This document shows, piece after piece, positions 1,926-14,753 of a stretch of DNA of 38,071 bases; position 1 is the first letter of the stretch; each line of letters begins with the position of its first letter. The stretch covers positions 1 through 38,071 of the forward strand of contig JAGAPN010000013.1 of assembly GCA_017623235.1 (NCBI GenBank), read 5' to 3'. The notes beneath the pieces were generated by a model. It did no database searches. It was not told the origin of the DNA and saw nothing but the letters and a program-made list of their open reading frames with translations. Both the position numbers and the translations under genes were made by a program. This DNA comes from Clostridia bacterium. GTDB taxonomy: Bacteria; Bacillota; Clostridia; Oscillospirales; Acutalibacteraceae.

Positions 1926-4454
1926 ATGCGGAAAATAATTTGCCTTTTTCTGGCGCTTTTGCTACTGCTGGGGACGGCGGTAATGGTAAGCGCAGAAAGA
2001 GGAAGCACTAAAAATCCCACCCGTGCCCTGGCGGTCGTTTTCGACAACTCGGGCTCGATGTACATCCACGAAAAAAACAAGGACCTGGGACCCGAACAGC
2101 CCTATGCCTGGTGCCGCGCCACCTACGCTATGGAGGCCTTCGCCACCATGATGAACGATGGGGACGTTATGCAGATATACCCCATGCACAGCATCCAGGT
2201 TGACGGACAGACCTACAGCTCAAAGTCACCCCTGACGGTTACCCAGAAAAACGCCTCGGATATCCGCAAAATTTACACCCCCAACCCCCAGGGTACCCCC
2301 CTGGCCTCCATTTCAGAGGCCTATAAGGGACTGGAGGCTACCACCGCCGATGAAAAGTGGCTGATAGTTTTAACCGACGGCTCAACCTTTGACAGCTATT
2401 CAAAGGAGGTCACCGTTAAAAAGCTTAACGAGGCCCTTACCAAGTGCATAACCACCGTTAACGTGCTGTATCTGGGCATCGGCCCCTCGGCGGCCATACC
2501 TACCGTTAGCGGCAACAATATTTTCTTTGCCGACAAGGCCGACGACAGTAACAAGGTGCTGGAAAAGCTTTCGGCTATGTGTAATATGGTCTTTGGCCGT
2601 GACGCGCTGCCCAAGGTAAAAAACAAGGTCACCTTTGACGTATCTATGAGCAAGCTGATTCTGTTTATACAGGGCAGCGGCATTAATAACGTAAAGCTGG
2701 GCAAGGCCAGCCCCGTAGCCTCCAACGAGCTGAAGTACAGCACCCTGGGCGGCGGCGGACAGGCCGAAGGCAAGTTTAAGATAGATAACACCCTGCAGGG
2801 CGTTATGCTCACCTACGCCGACCTGGACGCAGGGGAATATCCCCTCACCTTCGACGGTACGGCCAGCAGCATCGTCTGCTACTACGAGCCCGACGTTGAC
2901 CTGGATGCCCAGGTGCTGGATGCCGAGGGCAACCCCGTCAGCACCAAGACCGAGCTTACGGCAGGCACCTACACCCTTAACTACCGCCTGGTGGATAAAA
3001 ACGGCGAGCCCGTTACCTCCAAGCTGCTGGGCAAGCCCAGGTATAAGGTAAGCTACACCATAAACGGCGAAACCAAGACGGTGGATGCCGACAAGGCAGG
3101 CTCCATCGACCTGGATATGCAGCCCAACGATGAAATTGACGTTAATTTTGAGGTTAAATACCTTAGCGGCTACACCATAACCCGCAGCTCGGCCGACCTG
3201 GGCTGGCCCGAAGGAGGACTTAAGTTCCTTCCTCCCCCTGCAGGCACCCTTAAGGCAAAGCTCAGCGGCGGACAGACCAAGTACTCCCTTGTGGGTCTGC
3301 CCGAGGCCGAAAAGTTCAGAGTTACCTTTATTTATAACGACGCCGTCTGCACCGACGACCAGCTCAGCCGCATAAAGGCTACCGCCAAGGTCAAGGGCGG
3401 CAACGTAGACTGCAAGCTTGACCGTGATAAGGAGGGCTACTTTGTAACCCTTAACTACCACCACTCCCCCGTTGAAACCGATTGCGGCAACTTTGAGCTT
3501 CACGTGACCGGCGTTTACACCAACGAGGACAACCTGCAGACCAATATCGCCCTGGCAAAGGCCAATTTCACCCTCACCGACGACAGCCGTACCCTGGATA
3601 TGGCGGTGGTGCTGGACCAGAAGTATTACCAGCTCTCCAAGCTGGATAAGTCAAGCCCCGTCACCCTGAAGCTTTCCTTCTCGGGGGAGCCCCTTACCGA
3701 GGACGAGCTTAAAAGGATAAAGATAACCACCGACAGCGGTATCGCCCTGAAGCTGGAGCCCGATTATAAAAACTCCTGCTACAAGGCCTACTTTGACCCC
3801 GAAAATCCCCCCTCAAAGGGCGGCCACAGAATAAAGTTCACCGCCACGGGCACCAACGAGATCGGCCGTGAGCAGTCGGTAGACAGAAGGGTTAAGGTAA
3901 CCTTCGGCACCATGCCCCAATGGCTGCGAATCCTGCTGCCGATAGCGCTAATCCTCCTCCTGGCGTTTCTTACCTGGCTCTATCTTAAGCAGCCCGTTCT
4001 ACCCAGAAGAATCGTTTCCTCCAAAAAGGATGAGTCCTACACGGTGGGCGGCGACCTTATAACAGGCTCCAAGCCTGTACGCTATTCGGGCGGCGGCAAA
4101 AAGACCGGCGACGTTAAGGTAACCTCAGTTAACTGCCCCTTTGACAATATGGCAACCCAGGGCGTTACCCTCTACCTTGAGGCCGTTACCCCCCGCTACG
4201 TATTTAACGCCAAGCAGAAAAAGGCCAGGGTCGTAAAGATTCAGCCTATAAACTCTGCCAACGTGCTGTCCCTCCAGGTTAAGACCCTTACCCTGGTGCC
4301 CAACTCCGACCCCGACGGCCCTCAAGGCCTTGTAAACTCGGTTACGGGCCAACCTATGAAGCCCTTCGAAATCTCAAACAATACCCATATCAATATTGTT
4401 TCCGATACGGATGAAAACACAGCTGTATATCACTGCAAGCTTGTGTTCGAATAA
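1926..4454 (+). CDS. Secreted membrane-anchored von Willebrand factor A (VWA) protein
   Basis: An 842-residue type I membrane protein. Residues 1-23 are a signal peptide ending VSA. A VWA domain follows (about 34-225) with a complete-looking MIDAS: D40-N-S42-G-S44, a GTPL motif near 125 carrying the metal-binding Thr, and VLTDG near 149. Such domains bind protein ligands through a divalent metal. Next come several beta-rich, Ig-like segments outside the cell (about 230-660), one TM helix (about 668-690, WLRILLPIALILLLAFLTWL) and a cytoplasmic tail of some 150 residues rich in beta strands. It is the first gene of a four-gene operon, 55 bp before a tubulin-like gene. The architecture fits a receptor that senses an extracellular ligand and passes the state to cytoplasmic partners. 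Domain calls are firm; the role is inferred. Confidence 0.85.
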   Translation: MRKIICLFLALLLLLGTAVMVSAERGSTKNPTRALAVVFDNSGSMYIHEKNKDLGPEQPYAWCRATYAMEAFATMMNDGDVMQIYPMHSIQVDGQTYSSKSPLTVTQKNASDIRKIYTPNPQGTPLASISEAYKGLEATTADEKWLIVLTDGSTFDSYSKEVTVKKLNEALTKCITTVNVLYLGIGPSAAIPTVSGNNIFFADKADDSNKVLEKLSAMCNMVFGRDALPKVKNKVTFDVSMSKLILFIQGSGINNVKLGKASPVASNELKYSTLGGGGQAEGKFKIDNTLQGVMLTYADLDAGEYPLTFDGTASSIVCYYEPDVDLDAQVLDAEGNPVSTKTELTAGTYTLNYRLVDKNGEPVTSKLLGKPRYKVSYTINGETKTVDADKAGSIDLDMQPNDEIDVNFEVKYLSGYTITRSSADLGWPEGGLKFLPPPAGTLKAKLSGGQTKYSLVGLPEAEKFRVTFIYNDAVCTDDQLSRIKATAKVKGGNVDCKLDRDKEGYFVTLNYHHSPVETDCGNFELHVTGVYTNEDNLQTNIALAKANFTLTDDSRTLDMAVVLDQKYYQLSKLDKSSPVTLKLSFSGEPLTEDELKRIKITTDSGIALKLEPDYKNSCYKAYFDPENPPSKGGHRIKFTATGTNEIGREQSVDRRVKVTFGTMPQWLRILLPIALILLLAFLTWLYLKQPVLPRRIVSSKKDESYTVGGDLITGSKPVRYSGGGKKTGDVKVTSVNCPFDNMATQGVTLYLEAVTPRYVFNAKQKKARVVKIQPINSANVLSLQVKTLTLVPNSDPDGPQGLVNSVTGQPMKPFEISNNTHINIVSDTDENTAVYHCKLVFE

Positions 4455-4509
4455 AAAAACTTTTTATTTAAAATAAAGCCGTTTCTTTGCGGCAGAAAGA
4501 AGGCAAACC

Positions 4510-7500
4510 ATGGCAAAAGAAAAAGTAAAAATCAATCAAGTGGAAGCCCCTACCCTATTTATAGGCGTAGGCGGTACCGGTTGCGACATTGTCAAGCGTG
4601 TGGCTGAAATGTGCCGTCCCGGTGAAACTGCCAACATCAGCTTCGTATGTCTTGATACCAACGTTAACGACCTGTTAAGCGTTAAGGACAACGACGCCAA
4701 GGCAAAGGTCTACTCTGTTCAGACCTCCAACACCCAGACCGTAGGCGACTACCTCTCCTACGATGACGACGCTATGCGTAACTGGTTCCCCAAGAATGCG
4801 GTTATCTATGATAAGACCGTATCCGAGGGCGCAGGTCAGGTAAGAGCTATCTCCCGTCTGGCCCTTAACGCCACCATCAAGACCGGTAAAATCCGCCCCC
4901 TGTACGATGCTATTGACGACCTTTTCCGTAAGGACGGCAAGGCTATGAAGCAGGCCCTGCGTATCGTTATCGTTTCCACCTCCTCCGGTGGTACCGGCTC
5001 GGGTATTGCTCTGCCTCTGGCTATGTTTACCCGTGACTACGTAACCAGCAAGTACCCCAACACCAGCCTTATAGTTCGTTCCCTTATTCTTCTGCCCGAA
5101 ACCCTGGACAGCGTTATTGACTCTGCCGTTGAACGTGACAGCCAGAGAAGAAACGCCTACGCCACCATTAAGGAAATCAACGCCTTTATGATGAAGGGCT
5201 CCGGCTTCCTTGACGTTGAAAGCGACCTTAAGCGCTACGGCAACCTCCACATTGATTTCCCCATTGCAGGTACCGAGGACAAGCGCTCCCTCAGCGTACT
5301 GCCCTTTGACTTCTGCTTCCTTATGGACGGTCAGGATGCCGAGGACAGCACCCTTATCAGTATCGACCAGTATAAGCAGCAGGCCGCCCAGGCTCTTTAC
5401 GAGCAGAACATCGGCCCCATGCAGAGAAATGCATTCTCGGTAGAGGATAACATTATTAAGGAAATGTCCAACCCCGGTAACTACGGCCGTAACAGGTTCG
5501 GCGCTATCGGTGCCGCTACCATCCGTTACCCCTACGAGAAGGTAACCGACTATGTCGCCTACGATTGGGTTCTCGATAACGTTGGCGGCGAGGGCGAGGC
5601 CAACAAGTGGGGCAAATACGACAAGGCATTCCAGGCCAAGGTAGCCGAGGCCAGAAAGCAGGGTCGTCCCTCCAGCGAAGGCCCCTTTATCTGGGACGTT
5701 TACACCGAGAAGATGGATAACGCCAAGGATAAGTTCTCGGTTGACCTGCGCAACAAGTTCGTTAACAGAACCGACGTCAGAAAGCGTCTTTCTGCCTTCC
5801 AGTCTGCCCTTAAGCGTGAGCTTATGGAGGCTGTTTACTCCACCTCTGCCGTTCAGAACGCAGCCAACGCCGCAAATATGCTGGCCGTTGAAATCGACTA
5901 TACCGATATTAATAACCGTGGTATGGCAGCCGACAACGCTTCTACCCTTCGCAACTATGAGGAGGCCGTAAGAAAGAACGTTAAGGATATTGCCGCCGCA
6001 AAGGCCGAAGCTCTCTTTATGAACGAGCAGAAGACCATTAACGAAAAGAACCCCGCCACCATCGAGTTCCTTATGAAGAACGCCTACGGTGACATCTGCC
6101 ACCCCAACGCTATGCGTTATATGCTCTATGAGCTTATGAAGTTCTTCGATAAGGAGAGAGGCACCGCCCAGAAGATGGCCGAAACCGCCGGCAGCGCAAT
6201 GAATATGTATCATTCTGATGCCGCCGATGCCGATTTCTCCTACGGCAAGAAGAAAATCTCCACCTTTGAAGAGCTTTGCGCCGCCGAGAAGAGAGAGCCC
6301 TCCTTTAAGGATAAGATTAACGGCTACAACAAGATCTACGACAAGCTCAACGAGGCTATGACCGGCTACTACGGTGCTATCAAGCAGTTCTGCGAGAAGA
6401 CCGCCGAGTTTGAGGCCTACAACGCAGGCTATAACTACGTTAAGGAGCTGGCCGAGGAATTCCAGAGATTCTATTCCACCTTTGCAGAAAAGGTTTCTAT
6501 GATTGACCGCAACAAGGATGACCTTGTAAACGAGATTAAGTTCCGCAAGGGCGACTCGGTTTACAACATCTGCTCCTCCAAGGAACTGCTTGACGAGCTG
6601 AGCCTCACCACCAAGAACATCGCCAACGACAGCTCTATGCTGGACGATGCCGTTAACGGCGATATCTTTGACGCCGTTAAGAAGAACGTTGCCTTTGAGC
6701 GTGAAATCCGCGCCCTGGACGTTGTTGAGGAGGACCTCAGCGTTGATATCTTCGACGACGTTCTGGTTAAGTATTATAAGGAAGACGTTCGCCGCAAGTG
6801 CCCCGACCTTGATATGAACATCATCGAGGCTATTGCCCGTGAGAAAAGACTCCTTGCCCGCCTTACGAACAAGAGTGAAAGCGACGGCGACGGCAAGAAG
6901 GTATTCGGTAACGTTTCTACCGAGGAGCTGGAGCGCTATATTGCCGAGACCATCGAAAAGGGCTCCCGTCTGGCCGCCCCCAGCGTTCAGCGTATGCGTA
7001 ACGTTGAGTCCCGTGAAATCGTACTCTGCGCCTACAACAAGTCCCTCCTTGATATGCGTAATTTCCGCATTAAGGAGCTTATGCCCAAGGGTAACGCAGT
7101 AGAGAGCATCTCCAGATATGAGCTGCGCTTCTTCAACGCCCTTTACAACCTGACCCCCGACAAGCTTAACAAGTTTGCCGCTGCCAAGAACAGCGAAACC
7201 GTTAAGCGCCGCGGCGGTCTGTACCACACCGCTTACACCGCCTACAGCCGTGACATCGGTCCCGACTCTACCAAGGGCTCCAAGATTTCTACCCACATCG
7301 ACAAGCGTTGGGATTCCATCGCCGTTATGCCTGAGCTTGACTTTGACCATCAGAAGAGAGAAATGCTGAAGATTCACCAGGCTATGGTTTACGGCCTCCT
7401 CTTCAAGGCTATTAACCGCGTACCCCTCTCCCTTGAGAACGGCGGTAAGATGGTTTACAAGTACCATAATTCCGAGGACCGCGACGTAAGCCTCACCGTT

Positions 7501-8049
7501 TCCAACAACACCCCCTGCGATGAGTTCTACGAGATTCTTGACTCCCTCTACGTCAGCTCCTTTATTGTAAGCGACATTGACCTTATCAAAGCCAAGAAGT
7601 CCTACAGAGACAGAACCCACAACGCCAACTTTGCCGACACCGAGTTCAGCAAGGCGGTTAAGGAGTTCGAGCTTACGGCTATACACAAGGGTCCCACCTC
7701 GGTATTTGAAATTCCCGTTGCTTACTACGCCTCCCTGCCCAACAGCCAGCGCTTCACCGGCGAAATTTCGGGTATCGTTGACGCTGTTATCAAGAGCTTT
7801 GAGGATGAGCTTACCGCCTGCGAGGAGAAGGACGACGTTAAGTTCAAGCTTTGCACTATCCTTCAGCAGCAGCTTGACCTTCTCACCGCAAACTACGACA
7901 AGTATGAAGGCCTTAACGGCGGCCTCAGCTTTAAGAACAACCCCGTTAACGAAATAATTGTTCGCAAGATCACCCAGCTTATTGAATCCACCCCCGAGCC
8001 CACCGACTATATCGAGCTGGTTGAAAATATGAAGAAGCTGTTTAACTAA
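4510..8049 (+). CDS. Large tubulin/FtsZ-like GTPase-type protein
   Basis: An 1179-residue cytoplasmic protein whose first ~250 residues carry tubulin-superfamily nucleotide motifs: GVGGTG at 19-24 (T1 loop), FVCLDTN near 45-51 in the place of the FtsZ N-T-D loop, GAGQVR at 107-112 (T3-like) and SGGTGSG at 159-165, the tubulin signature G-box. This fits the family called tubulin-like (Tubulin_2), whose members are much larger than FtsZ (about 350-400 residues). The remaining ~900 residues are mostly helical, charged and have no motif I recognise. There is no signal or TM segment, so membrane contact would need the products of the two TM genes downstream. FtsZ-like proteins of this sort have been proposed to act in membrane remodelling. 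Its strong codon bias suggests good expression. GTP use and polymerisation are inferred. Confidence 0.8.
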   Translation: MAKEKVKINQVEAPTLFIGVGGTGCDIVKRVAEMCRPGETANISFVCLDTNVNDLLSVKDNDAKAKVYSVQTSNTQTVGDYLSYDDDAMRNWFPKNAVIYDKTVSEGAGQVRAISRLALNATIKTGKIRPLYDAIDDLFRKDGKAMKQALRIVIVSTSSGGTGSGIALPLAMFTRDYVTSKYPNTSLIVRSLILLPETLDSVIDSAVERDSQRRNAYATIKEINAFMMKGSGFLDVESDLKRYGNLHIDFPIAGTEDKRSLSVLPFDFCFLMDGQDAEDSTLISIDQYKQQAAQALYEQNIGPMQRNAFSVEDNIIKEMSNPGNYGRNRFGAIGAATIRYPYEKVTDYVAYDWVLDNVGGEGEANKWGKYDKAFQAKVAEARKQGRPSSEGPFIWDVYTEKMDNAKDKFSVDLRNKFVNRTDVRKRLSAFQSALKRELMEAVYSTSAVQNAANAANMLAVEIDYTDINNRGMAADNASTLRNYEEAVRKNVKDIAAAKAEALFMNEQKTINEKNPATIEFLMKNAYGDICHPNAMRYMLYELMKFFDKERGTAQKMAETAGSAMNMYHSDAADADFSYGKKKISTFEELCAAEKREPSFKDKINGYNKIYDKLNEAMTGYYGAIKQFCEKTAEFEAYNAGYNYVKELAEEFQRFYSTFAEKVSMIDRNKDDLVNEIKFRKGDSVYNICSSKELLDELSLTTKNIANDSSMLDDAVNGDIFDAVKKNVAFEREIRALDVVEEDLSVDIFDDVLVKYYKEDVRRKCPDLDMNIIEAIAREKRLLARLTNKSESDGDGKKVFGNVSTEELERYIAETIEKGSRLAAPSVQRMRNVESREIVLCAYNKSLLDMRNFRIKELMPKGNAVESISRYELRFFNALYNLTPDKLNKFAAAKNSETVKRRGGLYHTAYTAYSRDIGPDSTKGSKISTHIDKRWDSIAVMPELDFDHQKREMLKIHQAMVYGLLFKAINRVPLSLENGGKMVYKYHNSEDRDVSLTVSNNTPCDEFYEILDSLYVSSFIVSDIDLIKAKKSYRDRTHNANFADTEFSKAVKEFELTAIHKGPTSVFEIPVAYYASLPNSQRFTGEISGIVDAVIKSFEDELTACEEKDDVKFKLCTILQQQLDLLTANYDKYEGLNGGLSFKNNPVNEIIVRKITQLIESTPEPTDYIELVENMKKLFN

Positions 8050-8112
8050 TTATTTACGCTACGTCCCTTGGCCGCAGAATGCGGCCGAGGGGCCTGAACG
8101 GAGGTGAGAAAT

Positions 8113-10122
8113 GTGTTCACTGTAATTATTGCAGATAAAGAATATCTTCAGAAAATTGAAGAGTATAATCTGTTTTTAAAGCCTTTTTTAACAAGTCCCG
8201 ACCTGGCCCTGTGCCGGTGGGATACCGAAAAATCGGGCATTACCGAAATGGTGCCCGACCTGGCCCGCACGGTTGGTCGCCGCAAGGATTGGCGAGCAGT
8301 TATAATCTGCGATGAGAAGGGTCTTAACAAGCAAAACCCCTTCGACCTGGTAGATTACACCGCCGAAAAGTACGACGGCCCCCTCCACTGCGAGTCTAAG
8401 GACCCCGACGCTGTATCCGAGTATCAGGCCTTTTTAGAAAAAGAGCATAAGAAAAAGCTTGCCGCCTACGAGCAGGCTATGGAGAATCCTCTTACCCGTC
8501 TGGTAACCTTCTTCTGTAATTCCCCCTCTGTCACCAAGGAGGACCATCCCGAGTTTTCAAAGAACGACTCGGGCTATCTGCGCTACATTGAGGAAAACAA
8601 GGTCAAGCAGGCCCTTCGTGCCTCCCTTTTGGCCAACGACACCCCTCAGACTATGCCCCCTACCAACATCTACTGCATAGCCAAGCGCACCTATCAGTCT
8701 GCCGCAGAGGAGTTTGAAACGGTGTGGTCCCCCCATACCGAGCTGGAATACAGCCGCTTCTATGACAGAAATATGTATTTCGACAAGATGCGTTACCTTA
8801 TCTTTGACATACTTCCCAAGACACAGCAGGGCTACGATTTTGACTACGTCAGATTCCTTTACGCTACCCTGGTGCTGGGCGCCAAGGATATTCCCAACGG
8901 CAGTCTTGCGCCCGAGCGTGTTTACCGTCTGGAGTGTGAAAACGATGAGGAGGCCCTCAGCCGCCTGCTTCAGAGCTACGAGTACAAAATGCAGCTTACA
9001 AAGGAAGAGCTGCAGCTCAAAATAAAGGACATCCGTGACAAAAAGCCCCGCACCCTGCAGGATAAGGACGTGCGACAGATATTCTCAGCCCGTCCCGTTA
9101 TGGCTTCCAGGGCTACCGATGATTTTGATATTAAAAATCTCTTTGCCGACCACTCAAAGGTGGGTCTGGCCGACGGCTGCCCCGAGGATGAGGCCATTTA
9201 TTGGGACCGTGAGTATAAAAAATCCCAGAAGGCTCTGGCCCAGCTGCTTAAGCTTTCACGCCGTGCCATAAAGAAGGTTGTCCGTGACAGCCGTGATTTG
9301 GAGGAGGGTATTGATACCTCCCTGCAGCTCAACGAGTTCCAGCTTGAGGACGTAAAGGAAAGAATTACCGCCCAGGAGCTGGCTATGCTCCAAACCGAGA
9401 TTGTAAACCTTTATGATGAGAAACCGTTTCTCGACCGCCTCAGCCGTGAGGATGAAAAGGTTGAGAAAAAGATAAGCCAGCGTATGTACCGCAACCCCAC
9501 CCTTATAATAGGCGCCCTTTGCCTGGTTGCCTTTATTCTGGGCTTTGTAACCCTCTTCTTTAAGAGCCCCAACGCCAACCTTGTAAACGGCTCGCTGGGC
9601 CTTATTATCACCCTGGTGGCCCTGGGCGCATTTGCTCTGGCAGCCCTTATTACCCTTTTCTTCCTAAGGGGAGGCCTGGTTTCCAAAATCAAGGATTACA
9701 ACAACGCCGCCAACGGCATCAATCACAGCATTGCCTCTATGGTGGAGCAGTACAGCAAGTATCTGTCTTATATGAACAACGTCCGCCGTGGCTACGAGGT
9801 GCTGGATGCCGCCGAGGATACCTACAATCCTGATGCCGGCAAAATCATCCTTTACAAAAAGCATATCGGTGATATTGAAGAGTCCAACCTTGCCGTCCGC
9901 AGGGTATTCGGCCAATATATGGAGGAGAGCATCAGCTTTGATAAAAGCCACATCCTCCCCTACACCTTCAACTATGACCGTGTGGGTGATTACACCTATC
10001 CTCTGCCCTATTCCGAGGGCACCAACCGCAATATAACCTTTATTCACGAAGGCAACACGGCCAGCGTGCCCGTTGATTTCGTGAAGAGTCTGATAGTCAG
10101 AAGGGAGGAGCTTTATGAATAA
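8113..10122 (+). CDS. Two-TM protein of the VWA-tubulin operon, unknown function
   Basis: About 669 residues, no family recognised. The N-terminal ~460 residues are soluble and charged, with stretches likely to form coiled coil (around 280-310 and 370-450, rich in K/E/L). Two adjacent TM helices follow (about 465-487 and 496-521 counted from the upstream GTG, joined by a short loop), then a ~150-residue C-terminal soluble part. Both large ends should be cytoplasmic, with a hairpin in the membrane. I start at GTG 8113 because GGAGGTG (8100-8106) is the ribosome binding site; the in-frame GTG at 8104 overlaps it. The next gene starts inside this one (ATG 10115, 8-nt overlap), so the two are probably translationally coupled and act together, perhaps tethering the tubulin-like protein to the membrane. 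That role is only inferred. Confidence 0.75.
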   Translation: MFTVIIADKEYLQKIEEYNLFLKPFLTSPDLALCRWDTEKSGITEMVPDLARTVGRRKDWRAVIICDEKGLNKQNPFDLVDYTAEKYDGPLHCESKDPDAVSEYQAFLEKEHKKKLAAYEQAMENPLTRLVTFFCNSPSVTKEDHPEFSKNDSGYLRYIEENKVKQALRASLLANDTPQTMPPTNIYCIAKRTYQSAAEEFETVWSPHTELEYSRFYDRNMYFDKMRYLIFDILPKTQQGYDFDYVRFLYATLVLGAKDIPNGSLAPERVYRLECENDEEALSRLLQSYEYKMQLTKEELQLKIKDIRDKKPRTLQDKDVRQIFSARPVMASRATDDFDIKNLFADHSKVGLADGCPEDEAIYWDREYKKSQKALAQLLKLSRRAIKKVVRDSRDLEEGIDTSLQLNEFQLEDVKERITAQELAMLQTEIVNLYDEKPFLDRLSREDEKVEKKISQRMYRNPTLIIGALCLVAFILGFVTLFFKSPNANLVNGSLGLIITLVALGAFALAALITLFFLRGGLVSKIKDYNNAANGINHSIASMVEQYSKYLSYMNNVRRGYEVLDAAEDTYNPDAGKIILYKKHIGDIEESNLAVRRVFGQYMEESISFDKSHILPYTFNYDRVGDYTYPLPYSEGTNRNITFIHEGNTASVPVDFVKSLIVRREELYE

Positions 10123-13100
10123 TTTTTCCTTTATAGCTTCGGTACTTCTGGTGTCAGCCCCCTTCCTGCTGCTGGCAATGCTCAGCGCAAAAAACAACCT
10201 TAAAAAGGAGTTTCGGTGCCGCCAGGGCCTTATGCCCATAATTGCCGCCGTATTCTGCATAGTTGTTGTCTGCCTTCTTAACGTCATCAACAACTGGATT
10301 TTCCTCTTTTTGCAGAACATCGACAACTGGCTGGCCTCCCTGGCCCAGTGGCTGGAGGGTATCGCAGGGGGCGCTCTGGCCTCGGTAGCAGGGGTAATTC
10401 TTGCCCTGTCCGAGCAGATTGACGCCTTCCTCCGCAACCTTAACCTCCCCTTCTGGGCGGCGGTTATATCCAACTCCTTTATCATTACGGCTTACATTGT
10501 TTTCAAGCGTATAGCAATCTCCCTGTTAAAGGTGTTCTGCAACGAAAACAAAAAGCCCTACAGCTGGTTTGCAAGCCTGGTTTACGAAAAACGCACCGAG
10601 GACGGTCTGTGGTACGTAAAATCCCACTTTATACAGGGTATTACCTTTGCCAAGTCCCTCTACTACGTTGCCCTGATATTCGGTATTGCGGGAATCGGCG
10701 TCAGCTCCTTCCTGGTTGCCGGAAATCTGATTTCCTCCCTCTATTACCCCGTTATCAGCGTGATTCTGGTAGGAGAAATCTATTTCTTCCTGGACGGCGC
10801 CCGCTTCGACCGAGGCAAAGGCAGTCTTTCGGTAGAGAGCGACCGTGCCACCAAGTTCTGCGACTACACCTTTATGAGGGGTATTCTGCGCAAGAGCTTC
10901 TCGGATAAGCTGCTTTCCGAAAATACCACCGTTAACCACAGCGACCTGCTGGCCTTCCGCACCAACGACGAGGTTATCTCGGCCCTGCAGGACGATGCCG
11001 ACCCGGTTATCGAGGCCTACGGCATATTTATGGACAAAAAGTCCAAGGGCGGTCTGAAAATCGACCAAAACTACCTGGTGTCGGGTCTTACCCTGCTCCG
11101 GGGTAAAAGCGTGCTTTTCAACAACCCCTTCTACTATGACCTTATCCCCTACGTTTTCTATCCCCTTAACAGGGCCATTCTCCGTAGGAAAAAGGTGCTT
11201 ATAGTGCTGGGCCGTCACTCGGTAGAGCAGGATATTGAGGCCTGGTGCCGTGACGGTATTGCCTCGGTTACGGGAATCCCCTTCCTGTGGAATATCGGAA
11301 TTCTGGGTAAGGAGCAGGCCGACCTGGATATCGGCATCGTTACCCGTTCCGCCGTTCACGACCTGGCCATTCACGAAAGCAACGCCGAGTTCTTCTCCAA
11401 GGTGGATTTTGTGGTGCTTATAGAGCCCTCCCGCCTTATCTCCACAGCCCAGATTGGTCTGAACTCCATAGTTCGCTACTGCCGCCGTGGTGGAAACGAC
11501 CCTGTTTTCTGCTCCACCGATAAAAACTGCGACGGCATTATCGACGCCCTCTCCCACGTGCTGATGACCAGCCTTGAGGAGGTTTCGGCCACAAACAAGC
11601 ACCGTGGCACCTCTTCTTATATGTGTTGGGAGGCCGATGAAGAGCATCTCCAGCACAGAATGCTCCCCAACCTCTCCCGTTATCTGGGTGTCGGTACAGA
11701 GCTTTCCTTCTCCGCCCTTAAAAGGCAGGTTTCCAAGGCCTCCTGGTACGGCGGTGAAGCCTTCCCCGTGGTGGATATGCATTGGATTGCCAAGCAGTAC
11801 CACTATGACCTTATGACCTACGCCGCCCTGCCCCCACAGCAGGCCCTCTTTGACGAGGTTTTCACCTCCTCGGCCAATATGTGGAGCGCCCGTGTGGAGG
11901 AAAACCATTATCTCAGCGTCGAGGACGAAAGCTATAATATGTATGAGATAAAGCGTTCCTTCTCCACCAGGGCCGAAAACCAGGGCTTTATAAACGTTAT
12001 CTCCACCGATTACCTCTTAAAGGATTATATGGCGGCCAACGACGGCATTTTTGATGCCGACTCAAAGGCCATCCCCTATATCGTGGCAGACTACGCCCAC
12101 ACCGCGCGCAACGTTATCTACCGTCTGTGCCTGCGGCTTTCTACCATGGCCCTTCACGCCGAGGATATCGCACAGGAGCTGGGTCTTATAAACGTTCCCC
12201 TTGGGGAGGATATGAAAGAAACCCTGTGGCAGCAGGTCTGCCATATTGCCCAGGGGGTTGGCGTCCGCCACTTTGACGACAGCCTCGGGGCCGAGCTGCT
12301 CCATATTACCAAGGGCGGAAAAGATTACGTCTTCGACTCCACGGTAATTGAGGTTCAGCACAAGTACTGCTACGAAACGGGCCTTATGGAGGACCTCTAC
12401 CTTATAAAGGATAAAACCTTTATAAACGTGTTCCTGGGTGACCTCCTCTCCGCCGAGTACGTAGCCGAAAACGAAACCAAGGAAAACCAGTACATCGGTA
12501 CCGAGCTTCGTGGTCACGTCTTCCAGAAATATTTGCCCGGCCAGTTCTTCACCCTTGGCGGTAAGTACTACGAAATGCTGGGTATGGTGCTGGACGGCAG
12601 GGTTATCGTCCGCCGTGCGGCCGACCACATTACGGGTCGTCCCCAGTACCGCCAGGTAAGAAATTACCGCTTTGCCAATATAACCGATGCTTCGGATATC
12701 GGCTCTATAAAGAATATGGGCAGCTACGCTATTACAAGGCAGTTTGCAGACATCTCGGTGCAGACCCCTGCCTATTGGCAGATGGGCCGCTACAACGATT
12801 TTGCTTCGGCCAAGAGGATAGATATAAACGGCGTGCCCCTGCGTGAGTACAACAATAAAATGTTCCTCCGCATAGACTTTTCCGAGGCGGTTGCCCCCGA
12901 CAAGGCTACGGTTGATACCATTGCCGCCCTTATGAACGAGGTTTTCCGTACCCTCTACGCCGAAAATCAGAATATGATTGTGGCGGTAACCAAGGGTCAG
13001 GCCCAGGTTCCCTTAACCTACAGCCTGGATAACGAGGATATCCCCTTAAGCAGCATTTACATTATTGAAGACAGCCAGATGGATATCGGTCTTTTAGTAA

Positions 13101-14665
13101 GTGTTGAGCGTAATCTTAACCGTATCTTTAACATAATCTGCGACTATCTTGAGTGGCACACCGATGCCCTGGAGAAGAGTAAGAATCCTCCCGTTACCGA
13201 AAAGCCCGATTTCACCATTTCCGATGAAGAAAGGGCCGCCGAGAAGGAGGAGAAGGGCATTAAGGGCTTCTTTAAGAAGATTGGCAGAGCCTTTAAGAAG
13301 GTAGGAGGCTTCTTCAAAAAGCTTTTCGGCAAAAAGAAGAAGGGTGAAGAGCCTACCGAGGGCGCAGATAATGCCGAAACCGCCGAGGCCCCCACGGCCC
13401 AGGAGCCCAAAAAGGGCTGGTGGCAGCGTCAGAAGGAAAAGAGGGCCAAAAAGAAGACCGAAAAGGCTGAAAAGGCGGCCGCCGAGGCAGAGGCCGCAGC
13501 AGAGGCCGAGGAACCCACCGAGCCTCAGACTCCCGAATACACCGAAGAGCCTACCGCACGGGTAACCCTGGAGCCTGCCGAGGAGGAAGCCGCCCCCGCC
13601 GAGGAAGAAGCCTCGGAGGAAGCCGCTTCTACCGAGGAAACTACCCAGGAGGGCGGACAAAATGACGGCTCGGATAACGAGGAATCACTGATGAATATTG
13701 CTCCACCTAAATATCTGTACAGCCTGCTCCCCTCTGAGGAGCCCCAGGCACCTGCCGAGGCTACGGAGGAGGCTACGGATGAAACACCTGCACAAGAGGA
13801 AAAATCTCCCGTGCCTGTACGCAAGCCCTATCATCAGCGCTATTACCTGCTTTACGGCGGCGAGGAGGAGCCCTCTACCATTAACGTAGGCGGCGCCCTG
13901 AACGCTCTGCAGCTTCTGGGCTTTGGCAAAAATTCTTTAAGCCAGGCCAGAAACGGTATATTTGATTCCGAAATCATTGAGCAGAGTCTGCAGACCGACC
14001 CCTCTGCAACCCACCGCTGCGATTACTGCGGAGCCGAGCTTTTCGGCGCCGAGTATGAAATTCAGGCCGACGGCCGTGAGCGCTGCAACATCTGCAGCCG
14101 CACCGCCGTTAAGACCCCCGAGGAGTTCCAGAAGATTTATAACTCTGTGGTTCAGAATATGACCACCTTCTTCGGAATAACCCTCAACGCCCCCATAAAG
14201 GTCGAGATGGTTAACAGCAAGACCCTCCACAAAAAGCTGGGTAAACGCTTTGTTCCCACCTCCAACTCCGATGCCCGCATACTGGGCGTGGCTATCCGTG
14301 ACAAGAAGGGTAACTACACCATTATGCTGGAAAACGGCACCCCCAGGCTCAGCGCCATTATGACCACCGTACACGAGCTGACCCACATCTGGCAGTACCT
14401 TAACTGGAACGCCGCACAGATTAAGCACCTCTACGGTAACAAGCTGAACCTTCAGGTTTATGAGGGTATGGCTAAATGGGTAGAAATACAGTACGCCTTC
14501 CTTATAAATGAAAGCAGTACTGCCAAGCGTGAAGAGCTTATTACCCGTATGCGCCAGGATGAATACGGTTTAGGCTTCCTCAAGTATGACGAGGTCTATC
14601 CCCTGTCCTACGGCACTATGCTGCTGGGTGATACACCCTTTAACAATCCCGAAAAACCCCTATAA
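10115..14665 (+). CDS. Giant polytopic protein with C-terminal LIM-like zinc finger and DA1-like metallopeptidase
   Basis: 1516 residues. Residues 1-230 hold about five to six TM helices (near 6-23, 40-57, 84-98, 111-135, 182-203 and 210-227). A large soluble part follows (about 240-1030), unrecognised; 370-530 has alternating strands and helices faintly like a helicase core but no Walker A. Then comes a Lys-rich amphipathic segment (about 1047-1075, FFKK repeats) and an acidic Ala/Glu/Pro linker to about 1240. The C-terminus has a four-Cys finger (C1302, C1305, C1324, C1327) and a zinc peptidase site HELTH (1420-1424) with a Glu-Gly at 1450 as likely third ligand. Finger, then a TPR/LPR-like motif, then HExxH and EG is the order in the LIM-DA1 peptidase family. 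The last gene of its operon; possibly the effector released or activated by it. Confidence 0.75.
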   Translation: MNNFSFIASVLLVSAPFLLLAMLSAKNNLKKEFRCRQGLMPIIAAVFCIVVVCLLNVINNWIFLFLQNIDNWLASLAQWLEGIAGGALASVAGVILALSEQIDAFLRNLNLPFWAAVISNSFIITAYIVFKRIAISLLKVFCNENKKPYSWFASLVYEKRTEDGLWYVKSHFIQGITFAKSLYYVALIFGIAGIGVSSFLVAGNLISSLYYPVISVILVGEIYFFLDGARFDRGKGSLSVESDRATKFCDYTFMRGILRKSFSDKLLSENTTVNHSDLLAFRTNDEVISALQDDADPVIEAYGIFMDKKSKGGLKIDQNYLVSGLTLLRGKSVLFNNPFYYDLIPYVFYPLNRAILRRKKVLIVLGRHSVEQDIEAWCRDGIASVTGIPFLWNIGILGKEQADLDIGIVTRSAVHDLAIHESNAEFFSKVDFVVLIEPSRLISTAQIGLNSIVRYCRRGGNDPVFCSTDKNCDGIIDALSHVLMTSLEEVSATNKHRGTSSYMCWEADEEHLQHRMLPNLSRYLGVGTELSFSALKRQVSKASWYGGEAFPVVDMHWIAKQYHYDLMTYAALPPQQALFDEVFTSSANMWSARVEENHYLSVEDESYNMYEIKRSFSTRAENQGFINVISTDYLLKDYMAANDGIFDADSKAIPYIVADYAHTARNVIYRLCLRLSTMALHAEDIAQELGLINVPLGEDMKETLWQQVCHIAQGVGVRHFDDSLGAELLHITKGGKDYVFDSTVIEVQHKYCYETGLMEDLYLIKDKTFINVFLGDLLSAEYVAENETKENQYIGTELRGHVFQKYLPGQFFTLGGKYYEMLGMVLDGRVIVRRAADHITGRPQYRQVRNYRFANITDASDIGSIKNMGSYAITRQFADISVQTPAYWQMGRYNDFASAKRIDINGVPLREYNNKMFLRIDFSEAVAPDKATVDTIAALMNEVFRTLYAENQNMIVAVTKGQAQVPLTYSLDNEDIPLSSIYIIEDSQMDIGLLVSVERNLNRIFNIICDYLEWHTDALEKSKNPPVTEKPDFTISDEERAAEKEEKGIKGFFKKIGRAFKKVGGFFKKLFGKKKKGEEPTEGADNAETAEAPTAQEPKKGWWQRQKEKRAKKKTEKAEKAAAEAEAAAEAEEPTEPQTPEYTEEPTARVTLEPAEEEAAPAEEEASEEAASTEETTQEGGQNDGSDNEESLMNIAPPKYLYSLLPSEEPQAPAEATEEATDETPAQEEKSPVPVRKPYHQRYYLLYGGEEEPSTINVGGALNALQLLGFGKNSLSQARNGIFDSEIIEQSLQTDPSATHRCDYCGAELFGAEYEIQADGRERCNICSRTAVKTPEEFQKIYNSVVQNMTTFFGITLNAPIKVEMVNSKTLHKKLGKRFVPTSNSDARILGVAIRDKKGNYTIMLENGTPRLSAIMTTVHELTHIWQYLNWNAAQIKHLYGNKLNLQVYEGMAKWVEIQYAFLINESSTAKREELITRMRQDEYGLGFLKYDEVYPLSYGTMLLGDTPFNNPEKPL

Positions 14666-14671
14666 GCTATG

Positions 14672-14697
14672 GCCCCTGCCGAATTTTCGGCAGGGGC
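14672..14697 (+). terminator. Terminator of the VWA-tubulin operon
   Basis: GCCCCTGCCGAA (14672-14683), TT loop, TTCGGCAGGGGC (14686-14697), then TTTCTCTCTGTTTTTTT. A strong 12-bp stem seven bases after the last stop codon. Confidence 0.9.
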
Positions 14698-14753
14698 TTT
14701 CTCTCTGTTTTTTTAAATTTTACCTCATTTTTTTAGATGCTCCCTTTATTTCG

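Follow-up and report, generated by a model that had tools for sequence, protein, structure and literature searches.

A conserved clostridial operon encoding a VWA-family protein, a giant tubulin relative, a membrane protein and a predicted pseudo-helicase joined to a zinc-finger peptidase

Four adjacent genes in the genome of a clostridial gut bacterium raise the question of whether their products form a single cell-surface machine, as a first-pass annotation had supposed, and of what such a machine might do. We addressed it in the window, that is, the whole 38,071-nucleotide stretch of DNA analysed, which belongs to a 1.6-Mb assembly of 71% completeness, and in related genomes. The reading that we propose, with a probability of about 45%, is a surface-sensing, tubulin-based membrane complex that would free a peptidase, frequently in connection with ADP-ribose and ion signalling; its mechanism is what we infer from the evidence below.

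Layout and conservation of the operon

The open reading frames and their translations place four genes, A, B, C and D, on the + strand at 1926–14665: A at 1926–4454, B at 4510–8049, C at 8113–10122 in a frame that opens at 8104, and D at 10115–14665. A and B are separated by 55 bp, B and C by 63 bp when GTG 8113 is taken as the start of C, and C and D overlap by 8 nt, so that the four-gene unit and its spacing were found as previously described. The GTG start of C lies just 3′ of a Shine-Dalgarno-like ggaggtgag and agrees with the N-terminus of the family. A strong promoter-like site with an extended −10 element (1848–1877, +; TTGACT-18-TATAAT, 11 of 12 consensus positions) precedes A, and a strong terminator-like hairpin (14671–14698, +; 12 pairs, nine of them G-C) follows D, in agreement with a promoter-to-terminator unit. 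In a scan of the whole window, 16 promoter-like sites were found where 9.7 are expected, and 18 terminator-like sites where 16.7 are expected; hence only the strongest sites are informative.

A profile search of genome contigs with D yielded 125 relatives, of which 80 were kept, at 79 loci; as the loci were selected by D, its presence there is by selection. To call the core genes, stop-to-stop frames were scanned with an HMM for each of the four families. The order A-B-C-D was found at 65 of the 79 loci (D is in two frames at nine of them, and C at one), and 13 of the other 14 loci are cut by contig ends, with at most 337 bases upstream of the first core gene. At the one true exception, L097, only C and D of the four are present, and the 6.9 kb of upstream sequence holds other genes, which by eye include his-type genes. 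At another locus (L124), D has no peptidase. Together these two loci indicate that neither A and B nor the peptidase is always needed.

Searches with B gave a similar picture. Among 60 genomes, seven had a match over the cut-off, the window's own included, and five had all four genes in order. One genome (G052) carries B, has divergent copies of A and D, and gave no match to C. In another, of the window's genus (G007; L010 9353–16018), A is present and B is broken and continues into a RyR-TrkA gene, after which come TIR and CitMHS genes; C and D may have been deleted from between B and the RyR gene here, or the arrangement may be an artefact of assembly. In the class sample, D was found in 5 of 391 genomes, all five among the 11 with B over the cut-off, and in one of them (G129) A-B and C-D lie on separate contigs. 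When relatives are compared in pairs, the distances for A, B, C and the D body correlate with one another (r 0.69–0.89; best of 300 shuffles at most 0.22), as they do with those of the D peptidase (0.44–0.81; shuffles at most 0.23), although such in-step divergence would also be expected for linked genes inherited together. A survey of co-occurrence had been proposed in the first-pass annotation; its outcome, read from gene order in sequenced genomes, gives good support to A-B-C-D as one conserved unit.

The operon is sporadically spread: among genomes sampled from the order, the class and the phylum, it occurs in 18 of 295, 5 of 391 and 2 of 398, respectively, its own genome included. The 79 loci are titled Clostridia or other Bacillota, with the exception of one Treponema locus, which stands beside a Peptococcaceae locus in the D body tree (quick method with midpoint root; SH-aLRT 100, no bootstrap). 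This position suggests transfer. Named isolates with relatives are Pseudoflavonifractor sp. An44 and Faecalicatena contorta ET51, and Flavonifractor sp. An112 has a relative whose D is cut by a contig end.

Elsewhere in the window, a Gut-1 RNA lies at 76–146 (Rfam RF01706, 55.4 bits). The region 3′ of the operon (14811–36513) holds genes of carbohydrate and other metabolism, namely GH1, a 1636-aa CBM35 protein, GH30, GH2, aconitase X, glucosamine-6-phosphate isomerase and amidohydrolase genes.

The four proteins

Protein A (842 aa) has a signal-like N-terminus, DxSxS at residues 40–44 and, by simple hydropathy, a single hydrophobic segment at about residues 669–687 followed by a tail of about 155 aa. 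PF00092 matched 7 of 31 family members (best E 4.1e-6), while the window's own A had no VWA match in Pfam. DxSxS was present within the first 150 residues in all 48 well-covered members (48 of 64 relatives were used, those with low profile coverage being left out). The VWA assignment thus holds for the family, though the window's member has no Pfam match of its own.

Protein B (1179 aa) is, from its profile match, a giant member of the FtsZl1/Tubulin_2 family (PF13809, E=3.4e-54; 184.9 bits against a cut-off of 27), as had been suggested at first reading, with its Tubulin_2 domain at 4555–5574 (+). This domain occurs once in the window's genome. The GTP-binding GGTG[ST]G loop, at residues 160–165 in the window's protein, was found in 65 of 66 well-covered relatives (66 of 70 used, low profile coverage left out). 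According to the available text of Makarova and Koonin (2010; PMC2875224), the T6-H7 elements could not be identified in FtsZl1; therefore, filaments of B are not assured.

Protein C has two hydrophobic segments by simple hydropathy, consistent with the two-TM protein claimed before, and a large N-terminal alpha/beta domain. The weak top fold matches of this predicted domain include tubulins.

Protein D (1516 aa) is composed, in order, of a polytopic N-terminus that is hydrophobic by simple hydropathy, a large body (residues 226–1030; 10790–13204, +), a charged and variable linker (13205–13819, +) and a C-terminal zinc finger and peptidase (13820–14665, +), the last two being delimited by alignment. 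The body, whose nature was missed in the first-pass annotation, is predicted to adopt an MrfA/DUF1998-like SF2 helicase fold: its structure was modelled with pLDDT 87.1 and pTM 0.87, and Foldseek matched the model to 6znp_A at E=1.1e-25, with moderate overall TM-scores of 0.52–0.55 and an rmsd of 9.2. The body had no helicase family match in Pfam and no PDB profile match, and hhalign against two DUF1998 helicases gave under 1%; the kinship of D to helicases is thus seen solely at the level of the predicted fold. The Walker A and DEAD/DEAH patterns were each found in 0 of 74 well-covered D bodies (74 of 79 used, low profile coverage left out). A helicase fold with neither pattern suggests that D resembles a membrane-anchored pseudo-helicase carrying a zinc-finger peptidase. 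While the predicted fold appears to be shared with MrfA/DUF1998 helicases over most of the length of the body, D differs from them in its membrane anchor, in the absence of Walker A and DEAD/DEAH and in being joined to a peptidase.

The peptidase region contains a CxxC...CxxC finger with invariant cysteines (14018–14095, +) and an HExxH motif with invariant histidines and glutamate (14372–14386, +). Both were present in 69 of 70 D relatives, which bears out the claimed zinc finger and HExxH; L059, which was counted as having no peptidase motifs, may owe this to a misplaced match range. D is split over two frames at 11 loci. By motifs, 14 of the 70 relatives have a transglutaminase-like extension, and at one locus (L089) a separate downstream protein matches Transglut_core.

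The earlier label of a LIM-DA1 peptidase was not supported. A LIM domain has two zinc sites and eight ligands, whereas only four cysteines are invariant in the 52 aligned rows, and LIM was absent among the best 25 of the 61 families listed for the D C-terminus. The DA1-like family PF12315 was a weak match for 17 of the 52 members, with E 0.0042 at best, and DUF6055, DUF6782 and BSP matched more members with better E-values.

Signalling neighbours and a possible mechanism

Clustering of 454 flank ORFs, followed by HMMs, revealed three recurrent neighbour families that the first reading had overlooked: CASTOR/POLLUX-like (A7), TrkA-RyR (A8) and TIR. The first matches 6o6j at E=1.9e-6, and the one member scanned had no Pfam match at E 0.01; it resembles the CASTOR/POLLUX (DMI1) channels but is bacterial and lies outside the window operon. 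A member of the second matched RyR (PF02026, E 1.5e-5) with 25.6 bits, under the cut-off of 27.4, and TrkA_N with E 0.0054, also under its cut-off, and the TIR neighbours scanned matched TIR_2 over its cut-off. Phage RyR domains bind cyclic ADP-ribose signals, and their ligand residues are H75, W78, H100 and D117, according to the available text of the RyDEP preprint (2026; PMC13232231). The corresponding columns of the TrkA-RyR family, matched by spacing and motif and not by structural alignment, hold H in 16/16, W in 16/16, H in 15/16 and D in 16/16 members.

Neighbours were counted at the 56 loci whose downstream flank reaches 3 kb or more. Same-strand CASTOR-like, RyR and TIR genes were found downstream at 14, 15 and 14 loci, respectively, and upstream at 3, 2 and 0; on any flank, the counts were 17, 19 and 16. 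At least one of the three occurs on any flank at 35/56 loci and same-strand downstream at 29/56, with none at 21/56; after thinning at 80% D-body identity, these proportions were 30/49 and 25/49. The combinations of neighbour families vary between loci, and all five families counted are absent at 19/56.

The neighbours might merely share genomic islands with the operon, with no functional tie. Their varied combinations would agree with this, as would the abundance of TIR genes, which at E 0.001 matched in 20 of 60 background genomes (RyR in 12), and the weak co-divergence of the neighbours with the core. Their distances correlate with those of the D body at r 0.69 (RyR) and 0.54 (CASTOR), where shuffles reach 0.52, and the values for CASTOR against A, CASTOR against B and RyR against B are not above shuffles; the neighbour proteins track the core operon loosely. 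In contrast, CASTOR-like genes matched in 2 of the 60 genomes (one weakly), yet stand on the same strand at 14 downstream and 3 upstream positions among the 56 loci, and a same-strand RyR or CASTOR frame begins no more than 700 bp after D at 22 of 63 loci. We consider co-residence alone unlikely. A strong RyR-TrkA match was found in 4 of 7 genomes with Tubulin_2 over the cut-off versus 4 of 53 without (p 0.0042, relatedness ignored), and a TIR match in 6 of 7 versus 14 of 53 (p 0.0042, again with relatedness ignored).

In the reading that we propose, A, B, C and D would constitute a single envelope-spanning sense-and-respond complex. A would sense a surface ligand or envelope damage via its metal site, and at the inner face its tail would relay the signal to C and D, while B with GTP would assemble into a scaffold that clusters A, C and D. 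The pseudo-helicase body of D may serve as a binding platform for nucleic acid, a nucleotide or a partner protein, and would restrain and then release the tethered peptidase, together with a transglutaminase-like domain in those relatives that have one. The neighbourhood in many relatives also encodes a CASTOR/POLLUX-like channel, a TrkA-RyR membrane protein or a TIR protein, which suggests a coupling of the trigger to ion flux and ADP-ribose signals of the kind known from immunity-type systems. The fullest version, an immune-like machine of gut bacteria in which a VWA receptor and a tubulin scaffold control D and which is coupled to TIR-made ADP-ribose signals, a RyR-TrkA reader and a CASTOR/POLLUX-like channel, is improbable at present. 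If true, it would bring parts like the animal ryanodine receptor and like a plant symbiosis channel into one bacterial neighbourhood; should the connection with TIR, RyR and the channel prove real, a relative of tubulin in bacteria would be joined to nucleotide immune signalling.

The operon in the window stands alone: the ORFs scanned on its contig include none of the CASTOR, RyR and TIR neighbours. On contig 63 of the same genome (L126 59–3496), a RyR-TrkA gene adjoins a gene that is Card1-like by eye. An isolated operon would suit a machine for membrane remodelling or vesicle formation, as proposed by Makarova and Koonin (PMC2875224, in the text available) and cited at first reading; the D peptidase would then serve housekeeping maturation, and the signalling neighbours would be incidental. 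The linkage of FtsZl1 with VWA and the presence of membrane proteins, both known from that source, point the same way, but the sporadic spread of the operon and the recurrence of TIR, RyR and channel genes beside its loci make this explanation doubtful. The role was predicted in 2010, and we found no experimental test of it in the literature covered, which was mainly open-access. The present operon offers a fixed set of FtsZl1 partners, a predicted fold for the largest of them and a peptidase motif open to knockout.

A third alternative is an anti-phage or conflict system, in which the membrane-anchored pseudo-helicase would detect incoming nucleic acid and set off proteolysis, NAD-derived signals and ion leakage. 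The CASTOR, RyR and TIR neighbours are in keeping with it, as is the predicted DUF1998 fold of the D body. The DUF1998 family is used in DISARM and Druantia. A Card1-like gene near one locus (L125) matched PF09002 at E 2.8e-6; near two others (L013 and L126), such genes were recognised by eye only. Furthermore, the available text of Altae-Tran et al. (2023) mentions systems of vWA and tubulin proteins in the vicinity of CRISPR loci. However, A–D had no PADLOC (2023) match at E 0.1, and a third of the loci counted, the 19 noted above, have no member of the five neighbour families. D was absent from viral, plasmid and phage sequence collections, although chromosomal defence genes need not occur there. 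We regard a dedicated defence system as a less probable explanation than the sensing complex proposed here.

Relation to described systems

The claim that the operon is undescribed stands in part. We found no account of the full A-B-C-D set with such a D in the literature covered, mainly open-access, whereas the linkage of VWA with FtsZl1 has been known since 2010 (PMC2875224, in the text available). As far as our searches reach, the new element is D, helicase-like in predicted fold, lacking the Walker A and DEAD/DEAH patterns, membrane-anchored and joined to a peptidase. The FtsZl1/vWA operons of that study have the same tubulin family (FtsZl1 is Pfam Tubulin_2), a VWA partner and membrane proteins, but its available text names no helicase-fold peptidase. 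Their GTPase, kinase and OmpA partners, as given there, were not recognised among the flank clusters of the present loci, as judged without HMMs. The two sets of loci may overlap. According to the part available, Tubulin_2 proteins were set aside in a 2023 study of how FtsZ and tubulin evolved (PMC9871819), on the grounds that they are sparse and divergent.

As in Thoeris-type TIR signalling and RyDEP RyR (PMC13232231, available text), TIR and RyR domains adjoin many of the loci; unlike in those systems, they are neighbours only and are absent from the window contig. Conflict systems that are centred on GTPases and contain tubulin and vWA genes were described by Kaur et al. (2020; PMC7159879). 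The GAP1-N2 systems in the available text of that study share with ours a firmicute tubulin, an extracellular VWA protein and a predicted conflict role, but in firmicutes those systems contain GTPases, GAP1 and a pair of tubulins, in contrast to one tubulin and D here.

In the class, three Tubulin_2 neighbourhoods gave no match to D (L119, which has two tubulins, L122 and L123). From their layout, they may be of the GAP1-N2 type. Bacteroides capillosus is now Pseudoflavonifractor. A reviewer comment in the available text of PMC2875224 mentions an FtsZl1 locus of Bacteroides capillosus, which may be related to the Pseudoflavonifractor locus found here.
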